Shown piece after piece: positions 5,313-49,664 of a DNA stretch of 64,000 bases (within the stretch, counting starts at the first letter, position 1; every line of letters starts with the position of its first letter). Under the pieces are notes generated by a model. That model was not told where the DNA came from. It saw nothing but the letters and a program-made list of their open reading frames with translations, and did no database searches. The stretch is from an uncultured Clostridia bacterium. Lineage in GTDB: Bacteria > Bacillota > Clostridia > Saccharofermentanales > Saccharofermentanaceae. The stretch covers positions 54,650 through 118,649 of the forward strand of contig CAMVBS010000001.1 in NCBI GenBank assembly GCA_947165785.1, given 5' to 3'. Both the position numbers and the translations under genes were made by a program.

Positions 5313-6038
5313 ATGAGTATTAAAGTTTTCTTTTCGGCATTTAATATCGATGATACCAAGAGGAAGTGGCTGGTCCGTTTCCTGTTTGTTGTATTGTCGG
5401 TTCTTGTATCTCTGGCTATTCTCTTTCCTGTCGGAGATCCTGATCTTGAGAAGAATTCCATATTGATCGAAAAGATGATGAACGGGGAAGTAGACCCCTT
5501 TACTACGGATTTCACTCCTCTTGTTGATAATGCGATCTATCTTCTGAGTATTGAGGCACTGACATATCTTGTTATGTGCATCTCAGTTGTTTCGGCCGCC
5601 GCATTTATCTACGGAAGACGCAAGGTCAAGACCAAGGAACACAGGAAGAAGATAGTAAGAAATACCATCCTTGCGCTTCTCATGCTACTTGTCATCTTTC
5701 CGATGTTCTATTCGTTATATGTGAATTTTTATCTTTTGTTTGCACTAGCCGCGGTTTACGTCTCTATAATAGGCTGCTGCTTTGTTTCCGGTGATTACAG
5801 CTTCGGTGCTTCTTTCGGTAAGGGATTCAGATTCGTAAAAAAGAATGCTCCGACATGCATAGTGAATTTCATTTTGATGTTTATTCTCTTTTATACAGCG
5901 GAATATGTGATCGAAGCACTTAAGGAAGGACATGCCTACATGACGATCCTCGCAGGTCTTGCAGGACCTCTTGAAGTCTACAAGAACCTTGTTTTCGGCC
6001 GGATGGTCGCGTCGATCTATGTATTCGGCGAGAAGTAA
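5313..6038 (+). CDS. multi-pass membrane protein of unknown function
   Basis: ORF 241 aa with several hydrophobic segments; no SD in front of ATG. Confidence 0.65.
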   Translation: MSIKVFFSAFNIDDTKRKWLVRFLFVVLSVLVSLAILFPVGDPDLEKNSILIEKMMNGEVDPFTTDFTPLVDNAIYLLSIEALTYLVMCISVVSAAAFIYGRRKVKTKEHRKKIVRNTILALLMLLVIFPMFYSLYVNFYLLFALAAVYVSIIGCCFVSGDYSFGASFGKGFRFVKKNAPTCIVNFILMFILFYTAEYVIEALKEGHAYMTILAGLAGPLEVYKNLVFGRMVASIYVFGEK

Positions 6039-6185
6039 ATATCACAAACAGAACATATTTCATTTGAAATATTTTGTTACTTTCATTTGTTGAGTTTTTT
6101 GAGCATATAATTTATTATTATTGAGGCTGCTAATCTCGCATTAGAGTTTTTACATAAATTTTCCGTAAAATGTGGAGGAGTCAAA

Positions 6186-7358
6186 ATGGACGTTAAACAA
6201 GAAGCTATCAAGAAGCATACCGAATGGCAGGGCAAGATCGAAGTTATCGCCAGAGCACCTGTTGGAACAAAGGAAGAACTTTCCATCGCTTATACACCTG
6301 GAGTTGCTGAGCCATGTCTCGAGATCTCCAAGGACGTAGATCTTTCATATAAGTACACAAGAAGACATAACCTCGTTGCTGTTGTTACAGACGGTACAGC
6401 AGTTTTGGGTCTCGGTGATATCGGACCTGAGGCAGGTATGCCTGTTATGGAAGGTAAGTGTGCACTCTTCAAGGCTTTTGGTGACGTTGACGCTTTCCCT
6501 CTTTGCATCCGTTCCAAGGATGTTGATACAATCGTAGATACAGTTGCTCTTCTCGCTGGTTCTTTCGGCGGTGTAAACCTTGAGGATATCTCTGCTCCAA
6601 GATGCTTCGAGATCGAGAAGAAGCTCAAGGAAAGATGTGACATCCCGATCTTCCACGATGACCAGCACGGTACAGCAGTTATCACACTTGCAGGTCTTAC
6701 AAACGCTCTTAAGATCGTTGGTAAGAAGATGGAAGACATCCATGTTGTTGTAAACGGTGCAGGTGCTGCTGCTACAGCTATCACAAAGCTTCTCATCTCC
6801 AGAGGCCTTAAGAACGTTATCCTTTGCGATCGTAAGGGTGCTATCTATGACGGCAGAGACGGACTTAACCCTGCTAAGGAAGAAATGGCTAAGATCACAA
6901 ACCCTGAGAAGAAGGCTGGTACTCTTGCTGAGGTTATCGTTGGTGCAGACGTATTCATCGGTGTTTCCGCTCCTGGCGTACTTACAGCTGAGATGGTAGC
7001 TACAATGGCTAAGGATCCTGTAGTATTTGCTTGTGCTAACCCTACACCTGAGATCCTCCCTGATGAGGCTAAGAAGGCTGGTGTTGCAGTTATGGCAACA
7101 GGCCGTTCCGATTTCCCTAACCAGGTTAACAACGTTCTTGCTTTCCCTGGTATCTTCCGTGGTGCTCTCGATGTAAGAGCTTCCGATATCAATGATGAGA
7201 TGAAGATCGCTGCTGCTAATGCTATCGCAGGCATCGTTTCTGATTCTGAGCTCAATCCTGAGTACATCCTTCCGGATGCTTTCGATCCACGCGTAGGTAA
7301 GGCGGTTGCCGCAGCTGTTGCAGAAGCAGCACGTAAGAGCGGCGTTGCTCGTATCTGA
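6186..7358 (+). CDS. NAD(P)-dependent malic enzyme
   Basis: AYTPGVAEPCLEISKD...VTDGTAVLGLGDIGPEAGMPVMEGKCALFKAFGDVDAFPLCI...FHDDQHGTAVI. Confidence 0.95.
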   Translation: MDVKQEAIKKHTEWQGKIEVIARAPVGTKEELSIAYTPGVAEPCLEISKDVDLSYKYTRRHNLVAVVTDGTAVLGLGDIGPEAGMPVMEGKCALFKAFGDVDAFPLCIRSKDVDTIVDTVALLAGSFGGVNLEDISAPRCFEIEKKLKERCDIPIFHDDQHGTAVITLAGLTNALKIVGKKMEDIHVVVNGAGAAATAITKLLISRGLKNVILCDRKGAIYDGRDGLNPAKEEMAKITNPEKKAGTLAEVIVGADVFIGVSAPGVLTAEMVATMAKDPVVFACANPTPEILPDEAKKAGVAVMATGRSDFPNQVNNVLAFPGIFRGALDVRASDINDEMKIAAANAIAGIVSDSELNPEYILPDAFDPRVGKAVAAAVAEAARKSGVARI

Positions 7359-7373
7359 CAAGTTTAGATATCA

Positions 7374-7425
7374 TTTCACCCCGCTCAAATCTTCAAAAAC
7401 GGAGATCTTGACGGGGTGAATTTTT
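7374..7425 (+). terminator. intrinsic terminator after malic enzyme gene
   Basis: TTCACCCCG...CGGGGTGAA with internal pairing, then TTTTT. Confidence 0.85.
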
Positions 7426-21398: not shown

Positions 21399-22055
21399 AT
21401 GAAGATCGTAATCGTTGGTGCAGGTAAGGTAGGATTCTTTCTTGCAAGCGAGCTTGTTTTAAAGGGTCAGAATGTAACTGTCGTTGATATAAGGCCTAAG
21501 GCATGTTCACATATCGCCAATTCCCTTGGAGTAGAGACTGTGTGTGCCGATGCTTCAACTGTTCAGGGATTATCTGATGTATGTAATGAAACTGATATCC
21601 TCGTAGCTCTTACAGGTAATGATGAGAATAACCTCATTACATGTCAGATCGCTAAGAAGTATTATAACGTTCCGACAACCATTTCCAGGATCAATAACCC
21701 TAAGAATAACGATATCGCATCTATGTTTGGTGTAGATAAGCATTTCTGCGGTACGGATATCATCGTTAATCTCGTTGAGAATGAGATCGAGTTCAAGGGT
21801 ATGAAGATCGTCACGAGCTTTGATAATACAGATCACGTTATCGTTGAGTTTAATCTTTCTTCAAATTCTGAAGCCTGCGAGAAGAAACTCAGTGAGTATA
21901 AATTCGTTAAGGATGCAAAGGTCGTTGTAATAACATCATCTGACGGCAAGACTATCACTCCTCAAGGTGATACCGTCATGCATGCTGATGACAATATACT
22001 CATGGTCTGCCGCAGACGCCATATCAAAGATATCTGGGAAGAGATGGTCAAGTAA
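21399..22055 (+). CDS. TrkA-family K+ uptake regulatory protein (single RCK)
   Basis: MKIVIVGAGKVGFFLASELVLKGQNVTVVDI...LTGNDENNLITCQIAK. Confidence 0.9.
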   Translation: MKIVIVGAGKVGFFLASELVLKGQNVTVVDIRPKACSHIANSLGVETVCADASTVQGLSDVCNETDILVALTGNDENNLITCQIAKKYYNVPTTISRINNPKNNDIASMFGVDKHFCGTDIIVNLVENEIEFKGMKIVTSFDNTDHVIVEFNLSSNSEACEKKLSEYKFVKDAKVVVITSSDGKTITPQGDTVMHADDNILMVCRRRHIKDIWEEMVK

Positions 22056-22059
22056 TAAG

Positions 22060-23469
22060 ATGCTGGTAAAACAAAGCTTTGCACATAAGGTTATCGATTG
22101 GATATTTAAGAATCCGAGCCGAATGATCATTTCGTCATTTCTCTTGGTTATCCTGATAGGAAGTATTCTCTTGTTCCTTCCTTTCTCGACATATTCAGGA
22201 CATCATCTGAATTACTTTGAGGCGCTCTTTACGTCTGTATCGGCCGTCTGCGTTACGGGACTTGTAGTAGCTGATACTGCAACGACTTTTACCATATTCG
22301 GCAAGATCGTCCTAATAATATTGATCCAGATCGGTGGCCTAGGACTTGTAACCATTACTTCGTTTATTATTTCCTTTACTCGCAAAAAACAGGACCTTCG
22401 TACAAGGCTTGTAGCCCAGGAGACCTCAGGAAGCTTCAGTTTTAAAGAAGCTCCATTGCTTTTACGATTCATCCTAGGCCTTACTTTGGGATTTGAATTC
22501 GTTGGCGGCGTATTGTTTGCAGTTGAATACGTACCGAAGTACGGTTGGGCAGAAGGCCTCGGAAAAGCATTTTTCCAGGGTATATCAGCTTATTGTAATG
22601 CCGGATTCGATCTCATGGGTAATACTGAATCAGGTAAGTTCTCGAGCCTTGTCGGATTTGCGGGATCTCCTCTTATCGTAATAACTACATGCTGCCTTAT
22701 CCTTTTCGGCGGTCTTGGATTTACCGTATGGGTAGATCTTTTCGGCATGGTCAAGAATCATCGTAAGAATAAACTTAAGGTTCACTCCAAGATCGTTCTC
22801 GAATGGACCCTGGGATTAACTCTCGTAGGACTTATTGCGATGTTTATCCTGGAGTACAGTAATAAGGCAACAATGGGTGACATGTCTTTTGGAGAAAGGA
22901 TCCTTGCATCCTTCTTCCAGTCAGTTACATTCAGGACCGCAGGATTTAACACTATCGACCTCGGAGCCATGACCAATCCTTCCAAGACCATAGGAATCCT
23001 TCTTATGTTTATCGGAGCAGGTTCCGGTTCCACAGGCGGCGGTATAAAGATAACCACGTTTGCTATTATCGTTTACTCAGTTATAAGTGAGATCAAGGGA
23101 AATAAGGATACTGTTACGCATAAGCACACTATCTCAGGTTCCATAGTAAGAAGGGCAGTAGCGATCTTCTTTATCGGTATCTTTGTAGTTATCGGTCTGT
23201 CGCTTCTTCTCTCGATCACTGAACATAAAGCGATCATGGCTGGTGATTTCAATTTCATCGATGTGGTCTTTGAAGTAACTTCTGCTTTTGCTACCGTTGG
23301 TGTTTCATCACTTGGTACGCCTAATCTTCTGACGATCAGTAAAGTGCTCCTGATACCTGCGATGTTCCTCGGCCGAGTAGGTCCTATATCCCTCGCATTG
23401 AGCCTTGCCATGCGTGACACCAGGAAGATCGGTGAGGTCTATCCTGAAGGAAAGGTTCATATTGGATAA
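22060..23469 (+). CDS. trkH: TrkH/KtrB family K+ uptake channel subunit
   Basis: SVSAVCVTGLVVADTATTFT...QSVTFRTAGFNTID...GAGSGSTGGGIKITT...SAFATVGVSSLGTPNL. Confidence 0.93.
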   Translation: MLVKQSFAHKVIDWIFKNPSRMIISSFLLVILIGSILLFLPFSTYSGHHLNYFEALFTSVSAVCVTGLVVADTATTFTIFGKIVLIILIQIGGLGLVTITSFIISFTRKKQDLRTRLVAQETSGSFSFKEAPLLLRFILGLTLGFEFVGGVLFAVEYVPKYGWAEGLGKAFFQGISAYCNAGFDLMGNTESGKFSSLVGFAGSPLIVITTCCLILFGGLGFTVWVDLFGMVKNHRKNKLKVHSKIVLEWTLGLTLVGLIAMFILEYSNKATMGDMSFGERILASFFQSVTFRTAGFNTIDLGAMTNPSKTIGILLMFIGAGSGSTGGGIKITTFAIIVYSVISEIKGNKDTVTHKHTISGSIVRRAVAIFFIGIFVVIGLSLLLSITEHKAIMAGDFNFIDVVFEVTSAFATVGVSSLGTPNLLTISKVLLIPAMFLGRVGPISLALSLAMRDTRKIGEVYPEGKVHIG

Positions 23470-32290: not shown

Positions 32291-33019
32291 ATGCAAGATT
32301 TAAGAAAGATCACCAGAAGGTTCGATCCGAAGGATGGTTTCAGGATCGAGCTCCATTCTCATACGTCTGCTGCCAGTGCATGTTCGAGCATTGCACCGGA
32401 AGACATGGCGTTTATGTATAAAAAAGCAGGATATGGCGGACTTGTGATCACAGATCATTTCCTTACGGGTAACACTTGTGTTGACAGGACGTTGCCGTGG
32501 GATCAGCAGGTAGATCTGTTTTTCGAGGGATACGAGAGAGCAAAAGTTGCCGGTGATATGATCGGACTTCGTGTTTTCGAGGGTATTGAATATTCTGATT
32601 ACGGTACGGATTTTCTCTTGTTCGGCCTTGATAGGGATTTTATTAAGGCGCATCCTGAAATGACCAAGATGGAACCTGAGGAGTTCCTTCCGTTCTTTCA
32701 TGAAGCGGGAGCATTCATCATCCAGGCTCATCCGTTCAGAGAAGCAAGCTACGTACGACAGGTAAGGTCTTATGCACCTTATGTTGATGCGATCGAGGTG
32801 ATCAATCTCGGTAACTGGGAAGCCGAATACGACAGGAAGGCCAGGGAAGAAGCCGAGAGATACGGTAAGCCCATGACGGCGGGTTCAGACTGTCATCATT
32901 TCGGCGACGGATATTTCGGAGCAGGTATCATCCTTAAGAAAGAACCTAAAGACCTGGCTGAGATATGCAGGATCATAGGCTCCGGCAAGGGTTATGACAT
33001 TTTTGGAGGGGACAGGTGA
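32291..33019 (+). CDS. PHP domain phosphoesterase
   Basis: RIELHSHTSAASACSSIAPEDMAFMYKKAGYGGLVITDHF...IIQAHPFR...TAGSDCHHFGD. Confidence 0.9.
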   Translation: MQDLRKITRRFDPKDGFRIELHSHTSAASACSSIAPEDMAFMYKKAGYGGLVITDHFLTGNTCVDRTLPWDQQVDLFFEGYERAKVAGDMIGLRVFEGIEYSDYGTDFLLFGLDRDFIKAHPEMTKMEPEEFLPFFHEAGAFIIQAHPFREASYVRQVRSYAPYVDAIEVINLGNWEAEYDRKAREEAERYGKPMTAGSDCHHFGDGYFGAGIILKKEPKDLAEICRIIGSGKGYDIFGGDR

Positions 33020-34155
33020 GATTTTCCAATCTGTGGATCATGGGCGAAGAGGATCATCGCATTACTATTGAATGCGGGGATAAGAAGATCCTGAGGATAT
33101 CCCATCACATTGGAAATGATGAAGCCCCGTTTGAGGGCTTTGTTACCCCCGGTTTCATAGATACACATATTCACGGAGCTGCAGGTTTTGATACCAGTGA
33201 TGCTGATCCCGAAGGACTTTGTAAGATGGCTGTAAGCCTTGCGAAGGTCGGAACGGCAGCATTTTGTCCGACGACTATGACTATACCCGAAGATCAGATC
33301 TTCAGGGTCTGTGAAAGCGTGGTAAAAGCCTCCGAGATCCTTAAGAATACTGAGGAACCTCACGCTAAGATCATAGGTCTTCATCTGGAGGGCCCTTTTC
33401 TTAATCCGCTTAAGTGCGGCGTTCAAAATGATTCCTGCTGTGTTCTTCCAAAAGACGGTATGGATCTTGTGGAGAGGATCGAGAAAGAGTTCCCGGGACT
33501 TCTTAAGATGATAGATATAGCTCCGGAACTTGAAGGTTCGATAGAGTTTATTAAGACCTTTAAAGACAGGTATGTCATCTCATTAGGACATACTGCAGCC
33601 GATCATGATATCGCCATGGAAGCCTTTAATTCAGGTGCTTCAGGAGTTACTCATGCGCTAAATGCCATGGATCCGATCCTTAAAAGATCGACCGGAGTGT
33701 TGGGCGCTGCAATAGATTCAGGGGCATATGTTGAAGTCATATCGGATCTTCATCATATAGACAGAGCTATGGTAAGGCTCTTGTATTCGGATGTTTTTGA
33801 GGAAAGGATTGTTACGGTTTCCGATTCTATGCGTGGAGCTTTAATGCCTGACGGAGTATATGACCTTGGCGGAACAGATGTTACGGTAAGAAACGGAAGG
33901 ACATATTACGGGGAAGAAGGTGGACTTGCAGGTTCCGTAAGCTTCTTGTGTGATGAGTTCGTTAAGCTGATCGATATCGGGGTGGACCCTATAAGAGCTG
34001 TGGATTCGGTAACTGATAATCCTTTGATGAGGCTTGGGATAATGGAAGACGAGACTATGCCTGGATTACTTGATATCGGAAGGCCTGCAACGTTTAATGT
34101 TTTCGATAAGAATGGAAGGCTCCTTAGAGTTATCAATGAAGGGAACGAATTATGA
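33016..34155 (+). CDS. nagA: N-acetylglucosamine-6-phosphate deacetylase (GTG start)
   Basis: VTPGFIDTHIHGAAGFDTSDAD...IGLHLEGPFLNPLKCG...SLGHTAADHDIAMEAFNSGASGVTHALNAM. Confidence 0.93.
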   Translation: MRFSNLWIMGEEDHRITIECGDKKILRISHHIGNDEAPFEGFVTPGFIDTHIHGAAGFDTSDADPEGLCKMAVSLAKVGTAAFCPTTMTIPEDQIFRVCESVVKASEILKNTEEPHAKIIGLHLEGPFLNPLKCGVQNDSCCVLPKDGMDLVERIEKEFPGLLKMIDIAPELEGSIEFIKTFKDRYVISLGHTAADHDIAMEAFNSGASGVTHALNAMDPILKRSTGVLGAAIDSGAYVEVISDLHHIDRAMVRLLYSDVFEERIVTVSDSMRGALMPDGVYDLGGTDVTVRNGRTYYGEEGGLAGSVSFLCDEFVKLIDIGVDPIRAVDSVTDNPLMRLGIMEDETMPGLLDIGRPATFNVFDKNGRLLRVINEGNEL

Positions 34156-34931
34156 AGACGGATTGTTCATTTAAATCACTTTGCGAATCACCTTTGTTCA
34201 AAGGTGTTAACTGCAATGAATTCGAGGATTTTTGTACTGTCACCAGGGCAAGAAGCTACGAGAAAGGTGAGATCATAGCTTCTGAGGGAAGTCCTTGTAA
34301 CTCGATCGGGATCATATCCGAAGGACAGGTTGCAGTTCAAAAGATCTCTTCGAGCGGTGAATTTGCCACCATTGCGCTGCTTTCATCAGGCGATTTCTTC
34401 GGAGAAGACGTGATCTACAGTTCAGACAGCACGTATTCGACTACTCTTGAAACGATGAGCCACTGCAGGATCAGATTCGTCAGCAAGGATATCATGAATT
34501 CCATAATGAATAAGTGTCCGTCAGTAAAAGACAACATCCTCAGGATCTTATCAGACCGTGTCATCAATCAGAACAGAAGGATCGAACTTCTGTCTCAGAA
34601 GACTCTTAGAGAAAAGATCGCTTATTATCTCATAGATCTTTTTAATCAGCAGCAGAAGAAAAATGATGAGCGTATCTCAGGTGAATGCAGAGCCTGCAAG
34701 GATTTCGGTAAGGAAAACTGTAAATATCCGAGCGAAGCAAGGATCGTTGAGCTTCCTGTTTCCAAGGAGATAGCAGCTAAATTCCTTGCAATGCCGAGAC
34801 CATCTTTCTCCAGAGAACTGATCGCGATGGAAAAAGACGGGCTTATCAAGGTTAACGGGCGTAAGATAACACTTTGTGACGTTGCAAAACTTGAGACGGA
34901 GATCGTTGAAGGATTAAATAACGACAACTGA
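34152..34931 (+). CDS. Crp/Fnr family transcriptional regulator
   Basis: cNMP-binding fold (GEIIASEGSPCNSIGIISEGQV) plus HTH KEIAAKFLAMPRPSFSRELIAMEKDGLIKV. Confidence 0.9.
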   Translation: MKTDCSFKSLCESPLFKGVNCNEFEDFCTVTRARSYEKGEIIASEGSPCNSIGIISEGQVAVQKISSSGEFATIALLSSGDFFGEDVIYSSDSTYSTTLETMSHCRIRFVSKDIMNSIMNKCPSVKDNILRILSDRVINQNRRIELLSQKTLREKIAYYLIDLFNQQQKKNDERISGECRACKDFGKENCKYPSEARIVELPVSKEIAAKFLAMPRPSFSRELIAMEKDGLIKVNGRKITLCDVAKLETEIVEGLNNDN

Positions 34932-35001: not shown

Positions 35002-36420
35002 TTGTCTTTTGTAAATAAGATAGCTGATTTCATAAATGAATTGTTCAGAAGTCTGAGCAACGGCTACCTCTTCTTTGGCGGATGGGGTGACCTCATAAGG
35101 TCTGTCTGCGATATCCTGCTTATTACGTTTCTCCTTTACTGGGCACTTCTGTTTATCAAGCAGAGCAGGGCATGGCAGCTCATCAAGGGTATCGTTTTCG
35201 TAGTCGTATTCGTTCTCCTTTGCAGCCTCTTGGGTCTTGAGATGGTAGGCTTCCTGTTCAGTAAGTTCCTTTATGTATTTGCGATAATGTTCGTAGTAAT
35301 CTTCCAGCCTGAACTTCGAAGGATCCTTGAGACCGTTGGTATCAAGTCGTTTACTTCCATTAAAGGCGTGCTCGTTAATTCCAACGATCATAAGACGGAA
35401 ACTACGCGTTTCATAAAAGAGATAAGTAACGCATGTAAGGAAATGGCCAGGGATTATACCGGAGCTCTTATCCTTATCGAGAGAAATACCAAGCTTGACG
35501 AACTTCTCATGGAAGAGAATGTCGTTCAGTTCGAATCTTCTGTCACAAGTAACGTCCTGCAGTCGCTTTTCTATAAGGGGGCACCTATGCATGACGGCGG
35601 TGTCCTTATAAGGGAAGGAAAGATCATAGCTGCAAGATGTCATGTTCCTCTTTCAGTTACGATGCATAACCTTGACAGATCCGGTACCAGACACCGTGCT
35701 GCTGTTGGCGCCAGTGAAATGGGTGATACGATCGCTGTTGTAGTATCAGAGGAGAGGGGAAAGACCTCTATTGCCGTTAACGGTAAGCTTTATGAGATGC
35801 AGAACAGCGCTGAACTCGAGGCTAACCTTAAGTATCTTTTGGGTGTTTCCGACCTTAATGAGAGCGGCCTTAAGAGGGCCATCGGCGGAAAGAAGAAGAA
35901 AAGATCCAAGGCTCAGATCGCCAATGCCAACGTAGTAGTTGCTCAGAATGAGCCTTCAGGTGACGATTCGTCATTTAAGATGGCTGATTCTGTTCAGAGG
36001 GGAGCCGAGTCGCTCAGGAGCAAGAGCAGATCTTCTTCGATCGCTGAGAAGATCATACTTGCCGTGTTGTCGCTCCTTATCTCATTCGGTCTTTGGATCT
36101 ATATCCAGATCAATAATAACCCTGTAATCACAAAGCACTATGAGGTGCCGATCTCATATGACAACATGTCTTTGGACGGAGATTCATATCTTTCTTATCC
36201 TATCGAAAAAGTTGAAGTCGACATTGTCGGACGACAGAAGGTTCTCGACAGGCTTACGTCTGATGATATAGTTGCTACGGTCGATGATTCGTCAGTTGAG
36301 GGATCAGGTGTAACTGAACTTCCTATCATCGTAAGTTCGAAGGATTCCGGTGTATATTTCAGGGTAGAGCAGCAGCTTCCTGAGACCATTTCAGTTCTGG
36401 CTTCTGATAAGTCAGAGTAA
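35002..36420 (+). CDS. cdaA: diadenylate cyclase CdaA fused to a YbbR (CdaR-type) domain
   Basis: 3 TM + DAC (PMHDGGVLI...GTRHRAAVGASE...VVVSEERG) then second TM and SYPIEKVEVDIVGRQKVLDRLTSDDIVATVDDSSVEGSG in one uninterrupted ORF. Confidence 0.9.
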   Translation: MSFVNKIADFINELFRSLSNGYLFFGGWGDLIRSVCDILLITFLLYWALLFIKQSRAWQLIKGIVFVVVFVLLCSLLGLEMVGFLFSKFLYVFAIMFVVIFQPELRRILETVGIKSFTSIKGVLVNSNDHKTETTRFIKEISNACKEMARDYTGALILIERNTKLDELLMEENVVQFESSVTSNVLQSLFYKGAPMHDGGVLIREGKIIAARCHVPLSVTMHNLDRSGTRHRAAVGASEMGDTIAVVVSEERGKTSIAVNGKLYEMQNSAELEANLKYLLGVSDLNESGLKRAIGGKKKKRSKAQIANANVVVAQNEPSGDDSSFKMADSVQRGAESLRSKSRSSSIAEKIILAVLSLLISFGLWIYIQINNNPVITKHYEVPISYDNMSLDGDSYLSYPIEKVEVDIVGRQKVLDRLTSDDIVATVDDSSVEGSGVTELPIIVSSKDSGVYFRVEQQLPETISVLASDKSE

Positions 36421-36447
36421 AAATCCTAATATTTTTGACACAAAAAT

Positions 36448-36482
36448 AATAAGGTTGCTTCTCGGGTAGAAGCAACCTTATT
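36448..36482. terminator. bidirectional intrinsic terminator
   Basis: AATAAGGTTGCTTCtcgggtaGAAGCAACCTTATT between convergent genes. Confidence 0.85.
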
Positions 36483-36510
36483 AATAGCCCTTAAACTAAT
36501 GCGTTTGTCG

Positions 36511-49373: not shown

Positions 49374-49417
49374 CTCTTGCCACAAGCGGGTTTTAAGAGT
49401 AAACTTTACTAAATCAA

Positions 49418-49664
49418 AAAAGCGACGATAAGGACACGTGCCTGTGGAAAACGTCACCAGAGAATCGAAGTCATCGGCTGGAAGCTTCGTTAGATAAGTC
49501 CCACAAGTATACAACCTTTGAGCTGCAGGGGTAAATCATTTATGAGTAACCTTCGCCGTACGGCCGCGTTAAGGCTTAATTGAGTGGCATATCAAATGAT
49601 ATGCAATTTGGGTGGAACCGTGCAACCATGCATCCCAATGCTTGGGGCATGGTGTTTTTATTTT
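49418..49664 (+). promoter_or_regulatory. T-box leader of thrS
   Basis: T-box core TTGGGTGGAACCGTGC (49608-49623), AGAGA and GGCTGGAAG stem I motifs, candidate ACC (Thr) specifier at 49514-49516, followed by terminator. Confidence 0.9.
49625..49664 (+). terminator. T-box regulated terminator
   Basis: ACCATGCatCCCAAtgcTTGGGGCATGGTgTTTTTATTTT. Confidence 0.9.

Follow-up and report, generated by a model that had tools for sequence, protein, structure and literature searches.

c-di-AMP is an essential signal. In Firmicutes, its cyclase CdaA and the CdaA regulator CdaR (YbbR) are encoded by separate genes of a cdaA-cdaR-glmM operon (PMC8573169, PMC6368335), and the two proteins are reported to contact each other through their transmembrane (TM) regions (PMC10243994, PMC8573169). 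The direction of the regulation is disputed, CdaR being an activator or a repressor according to conditions (PMC8573169). In S. aureus, disruption of ybbR raised c-di-AMP (PMC11520302), and one study of this species found the effect of YbbR not conclusive (PMC6368335). In Chlamydia, it has been proposed that YbbR is the limiting partner in the production of c-di-AMP, the balance between DacA and YbbR being important (PMC12422730). The CdaR proteins of lactic acid bacteria have three or four repeats, and CdaA-CdaR fusions have been reported in some streptococci, namely A5LQF8, E1M7C3 and V8IIN0 (PMC10243994).

Here we describe a locus in a window of 64,000 nucleotides, that is, the whole stretch of DNA analysed, from an uncultured member of the Clostridia. 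The original prediction, made from the sequence of the window, was that cyclase and regulator form a single polypeptide at this locus. This polypeptide is real: one open frame contains the Pfam domains of CdaA together with a region recognised by a CdaR profile.

Anatomy of the protein and identity of its tail

The cdaA-cdaR fusion gene (35002..36420, plus strand, as are all its parts given below) has a TTG start and encodes 472 amino acids. Its first half is of the CdaA type, with a three-helix N-terminal membrane region and a DAC domain that carries the catalytic Asp-Gly and RHR motifs. The three membrane helices of the CdaA_N region (residues 28-54, 57-76 and 80-100; 35083..35301) were recognised by Pfam (residues 32-104, 36.2 bits), by hydropathy and as helices in the AlphaFold model; the full-length model, whose overall pTM is 0.49, places a short leading helix ahead of them. 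The DAC catalytic domain, predicted to be cytoplasmic, follows at residues 143-263 (35428..35790), and the proposed HMM check for it (PF02457) returned 113 bits. Within this domain, the active-site motifs are HDGG at residues 197-200 (35590..35601), where the usual form is HDGA, and GTRHRAA at residues 228-234 (35683..35703). The DAC model matches B. subtilis CdaA with a TM-score of 0.94 by target length.

A charged linker, modelled with low confidence (pLDDT <50) and taken to be disordered, occupies residues 286-342 (35857..36027); in relatives this region varies between 23 and 120 amino acids and shows low conservation. The linker leads into a fourth TM helix, TM4 (residues 347-372; 36040..36117), which is indicated by hydropathy and the AlphaFold model and matches the N-terminal TM helix of CdaR. 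A conserved pattern, LWxYxQxxxNP, runs out of TM4, and the protein ends with a single YbbR-like beta domain, predicted to be extracytoplasmic (residues 375-469; 36124..36408).

Whether this tail is indeed CdaR was tested by profiles in two directions, because its Pfam YbbR score is marginal. The expected YbbR match (PF07949) fell short in hmmscan, where residues 382-465 scored 19.9 bits against a Pfam cut-off of 22.3, and was obtained in the genome-wide profile search, at 23.9 bits. About half of the order, moreover, has no Pfam YbbR match. Such marginal scores are what one might see if the tail were an unrelated extracytoplasmic domain rather than CdaR. However, a CdaR N-terminal profile, built solely from the N-termini of 36 stand-alone CdaR proteins from other orders, matches residues 347-465 of the window protein with 66.3 bits (i-E 1.3e-17, Z=100,000), and matches every one of the 75 complete fused ORFs. 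In the opposite direction, a profile built from the tails of the fusions picks out residues ~4-130, i.e., the first TM helix and first YbbR repeat, of stand-alone CdaR in 36 genomes, with domain E-values down to 4e-24; these 36 ORFs lie downstream of cdaA in genomes of other orders. A profile trained without family f4 recovered 11 of 11 f4 tails.

The predicted fold is consistent with these matches. The best PDB matches of the AlphaFold tail model (pLDDT 90.1) are YbbR-type domains, including Listeria CdaR lmo2119 and Dhaf_0833, with target-length TM-scores that reach 0.71. Their E-values are modest, 0.0066 at best, but there is no competing fold. A PDB sequence search with the tail alone as query gave a weak match (best E 0.4). 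With the stand-alone CdaR profile and the PDB folds pointing the same way, we consider an unrelated domain highly improbable. Judged by profiles and model, the tail is the TM helix plus the first YbbR repeat of CdaR, the later repeats having apparently been lost; the frame ends after this one repeat, short of the several repeats of a CdaR. A CdaR reduced to about one repeat is what had been predicted.

Distribution and origin of the fusion

The source genome is a 2.46-Mb draft in 148 contigs, so that the joining of two genes by an error of assembly or sequencing, through an overlooked stop or frameshift, had to be considered. The same unbroken architecture, however, is found in 75 complete ORFs from four families of the order (two genomes being represented twice), in independent genomes that include single-contig ones. 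Because of this recurrence a missed frameshift can be excluded without reads, and an artefact, whose probability we regard as negligible, was ruled out. The original prediction had also raised the question of a second, stand-alone cdaR; there is none among the matches in this genome, in which the fusion is the sole YbbR match as well as the sole DAC match.

Across the whole order of gut and rumen Clostridia (98 sampled genomes), the fusion is the standard and only form. DAC is present in 94 of the 98 genomes, and every DAC frame that does not run off a contig is of fusion length, 420-569 amino acids; truncation at a contig end was seen directly for L018 and L027, and deduced from coordinates for G069 and G080. 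Fragments excepted, the Pfam YbbR matches of the order all lie inside the DAC frame. The close relatives are MAGs in public records, among them ones from yak omasum and horse faeces. Outside the order, the DAC frames among the matches listed for 177 genomes of the class, a list in which fusions of low score may be lacking, are 272-395 amino acids long, with YbbR in a separate frame. That cdaA and cdaR are separate genes elsewhere, as had been stated, was also seen in 40 class loci fetched from outside the order: a stand-alone cdaA is present in 40/40, and a matching downstream cdaR in 36/40.

The fusion profile was also run against 399 genomes sampled from the phylum; among the matches listed, in a ranking in which any fusion would come first, only that of the window's own genome is full-length. 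Fifteen phylum rows with reported frames of 577-706 amino acids were considered as further fusions, and none of the 15 holds up; in all of them a stop codon follows cdaA, and CdaR then continues in the same frame. As to how unusual the architecture is, the original expectation stands in one part, the separate genes of the sampled Clostridia outside the order, and fails in two: the fusion is the standard of its order rather than a one-off, and the streptococcal fusions were already published (PMC10243994).

A tree built by a quick method from 93 DAC regions has a single branch (SH-aLRT 99) that sets the fusions apart from the rest; a single origin is the simplest reading. In sister genomes, the start of cdaR usually lies within or just past the end of cdaA, with offsets mostly between -28 and +17, and at some sister loci cdaR is in the same frame as cdaA, after a stop. 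Most likely, overlapping cdaA and cdaR genes were fused through stop loss or a change of frame, and the later YbbR repeats may have been lost along with this. In 16 loci (L120-L124, L127-L136 and L139), 15 of which were chosen for their long reported frames and which is therefore a biased sample, cdaR opens in frame immediately past the cdaA stop codon; that is, these loci are one stop away from a full-length fusion.

Genomic context

Directly upstream of the fusion lies a gene for a Crp/Fnr-family regulator (34152..34931, plus strand), and upstream of this one for a NagA-like N-acetylglucosamine-6-phosphate deacetylase (33016..34155, plus strand). In most of the f4 loci examined, and in part of family f1, a Crp/Fnr gene likewise immediately precedes the fusion, and a NagA-like gene is upstream of it in many f1 loci. 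The product of NagA, glucosamine-6-phosphate, is the substrate of GlmM, and these recurrent neighbours (33016-34931) may hint at a metabolic link to GlmM. Downstream are a convergent HEAT-repeat ORF and then a GH5 cellulase ORF, with a terminator-like hairpin of 16 pairs, found by pattern match, between the fusion and the HEAT-repeat ORF (36447..36483, minus strand). The predicted absence of glmM holds for the fusion locus, where it is not adjacent, and not for the genome, in which glmM is found on contig C29 (7354-8667, 548 bits).

A 498-residue DHH-DHHA1 protein (L145, 916-2409), encoded about 8 kb from glmM on the same contig, is a candidate phosphodiesterase for c-di-AMP or pApA. GdpP was not identified among the three DHHA1 matches of the genome, of which all but one, of 898 residues, were scanned, and neither the c-di-AMP riboswitch RF00379 nor a PstA/DarA receptor was found in the genome. 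The TrkA (21399-22055) and TrkH (21967-23469) genes do lie in the window, as had been noted, ~11.5 kb from the fusion; what connects them with it is this co-location. A T-box leader (RF00230) was found at 49416-49640 with 100.8 bits.

Function and relation to known systems

We propose that the protein is a housekeeping membrane CdaA joined to the N-terminal part of CdaR as a built-in 1:1 regulator, and assign this reading a probability of roughly three in four. The DAC domain would produce c-di-AMP from ATP in the cytosol, TM4 would pack in cis on the CdaA TM bundle, as reported for the separate CdaR in trans, and the YbbR domain outside the membrane would tune the activity or the oligomer state of the cyclase. 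A one-chain fusion in itself makes the stoichiometry of cyclase and regulator permanently 1:1, and the retention of just the TM helix and the first external domain fits a built-in regulator. An envelope signal could in this way pass across the membrane to c-di-AMP synthesis, as the original prediction suggested. More tentatively, and with less than even odds in our estimation, the order may have exchanged the CdaA/CdaR pair for a minimal one-chain transmembrane cyclase whose c-di-AMP output is under the direct control of its single external YbbR domain. If so, the question of what CdaR senses could be addressed in this naturally minimal system.

Two other explanations must be weighed against a built-in regulator. 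The tail formed by TM4 and YbbR could be a passive second anchor, or a relic of CdaR, in an enzyme that acts like plain CdaA. The loss of the later CdaR repeats would be in keeping with such a role, as would the S. aureus study in which no conclusive regulatory effect of YbbR was seen (PMC6368335). Furthermore, compared with the DAC part, the YbbR part is less conserved and changes more rapidly, a pattern that an anchor under weak constraint would show as well, and in one pair the pN/pS of the tail is ~0.98, near neutrality. In most pairs compared, however, the tail is under purifying selection, weaker than that on the DAC domain, and it has been kept in 75/75 complete ORFs across four families. 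In addition, R411 and P460 of the YbbR part are invariant in an alignment of 54 fusions, and W365, Q369, N373 and P374 are near-invariant. We thus regard a passive tail as unlikely.

Much less probable still is a degenerate DAC domain, which would make the protein a sensor or scaffold instead of a cyclase. HDGG does replace HDGA in most members of the genus (the window, L003-L005, L007 and most of L040-L065), and the copy in L006 and L066 has RHK for RHR. Yet D198, R230 and H231, along with G199, are invariant in the same 54-row alignment, HDGA is retained in L043 of this genus and in nearly all members of the other families, and the fusion is the only DAC of its genome. The horse-faeces genome L006 deserves a remark of its own. 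Its sole DAC (6001-7401) has RHK for RHR, AVA for AVG and INAP for VPLS, with which its activity may be altered; the RHK motif is shared by L066.

With CdaA (DacA; TIGR00159 / PF02457 plus PF19293), the fusion shares the architecture of three TM helices and a DAC domain, the catalytic motifs and the fold. It differs in the added C-terminal linker, extra TM helix and YbbR domain, and scores just below the cut-off of the CdaA equivalog TIGR00159 of NCBIfam (187.7 versus 188.8 bits). Its TM helix and YbbR domain are shared with CdaR (YbbR, PF07949), to whose first ~130 residues they are homologous, but the fusion has one repeat, is not a separate protein and is not followed by glmM. Compared with the Firmicutes cdaA-cdaR-glmM operon, the same components are present in the genome, but cdaA and cdaR are fused and glmM is on another contig. 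A natural one-chain, one-repeat version would show which part of CdaR was worth keeping, and would be a smaller target in studies of the structure and activity behind membrane control of c-di-AMP.

Our literature search found no paper joining Saccharofermentans with c-di-AMP, and an earlier description of the clostridial form is possible. The streptococcal fusions likewise hold CdaA and CdaR in one uninterrupted frame; compared by description only, they occur in some strains and are described as large, whereas the Clostridia fusion is order-wide and has one repeat. Given that the streptococcal fusions are already known, the new points are the fixation of the fusion across an order, its reduction to one repeat and the unlinking of glmM from the locus.
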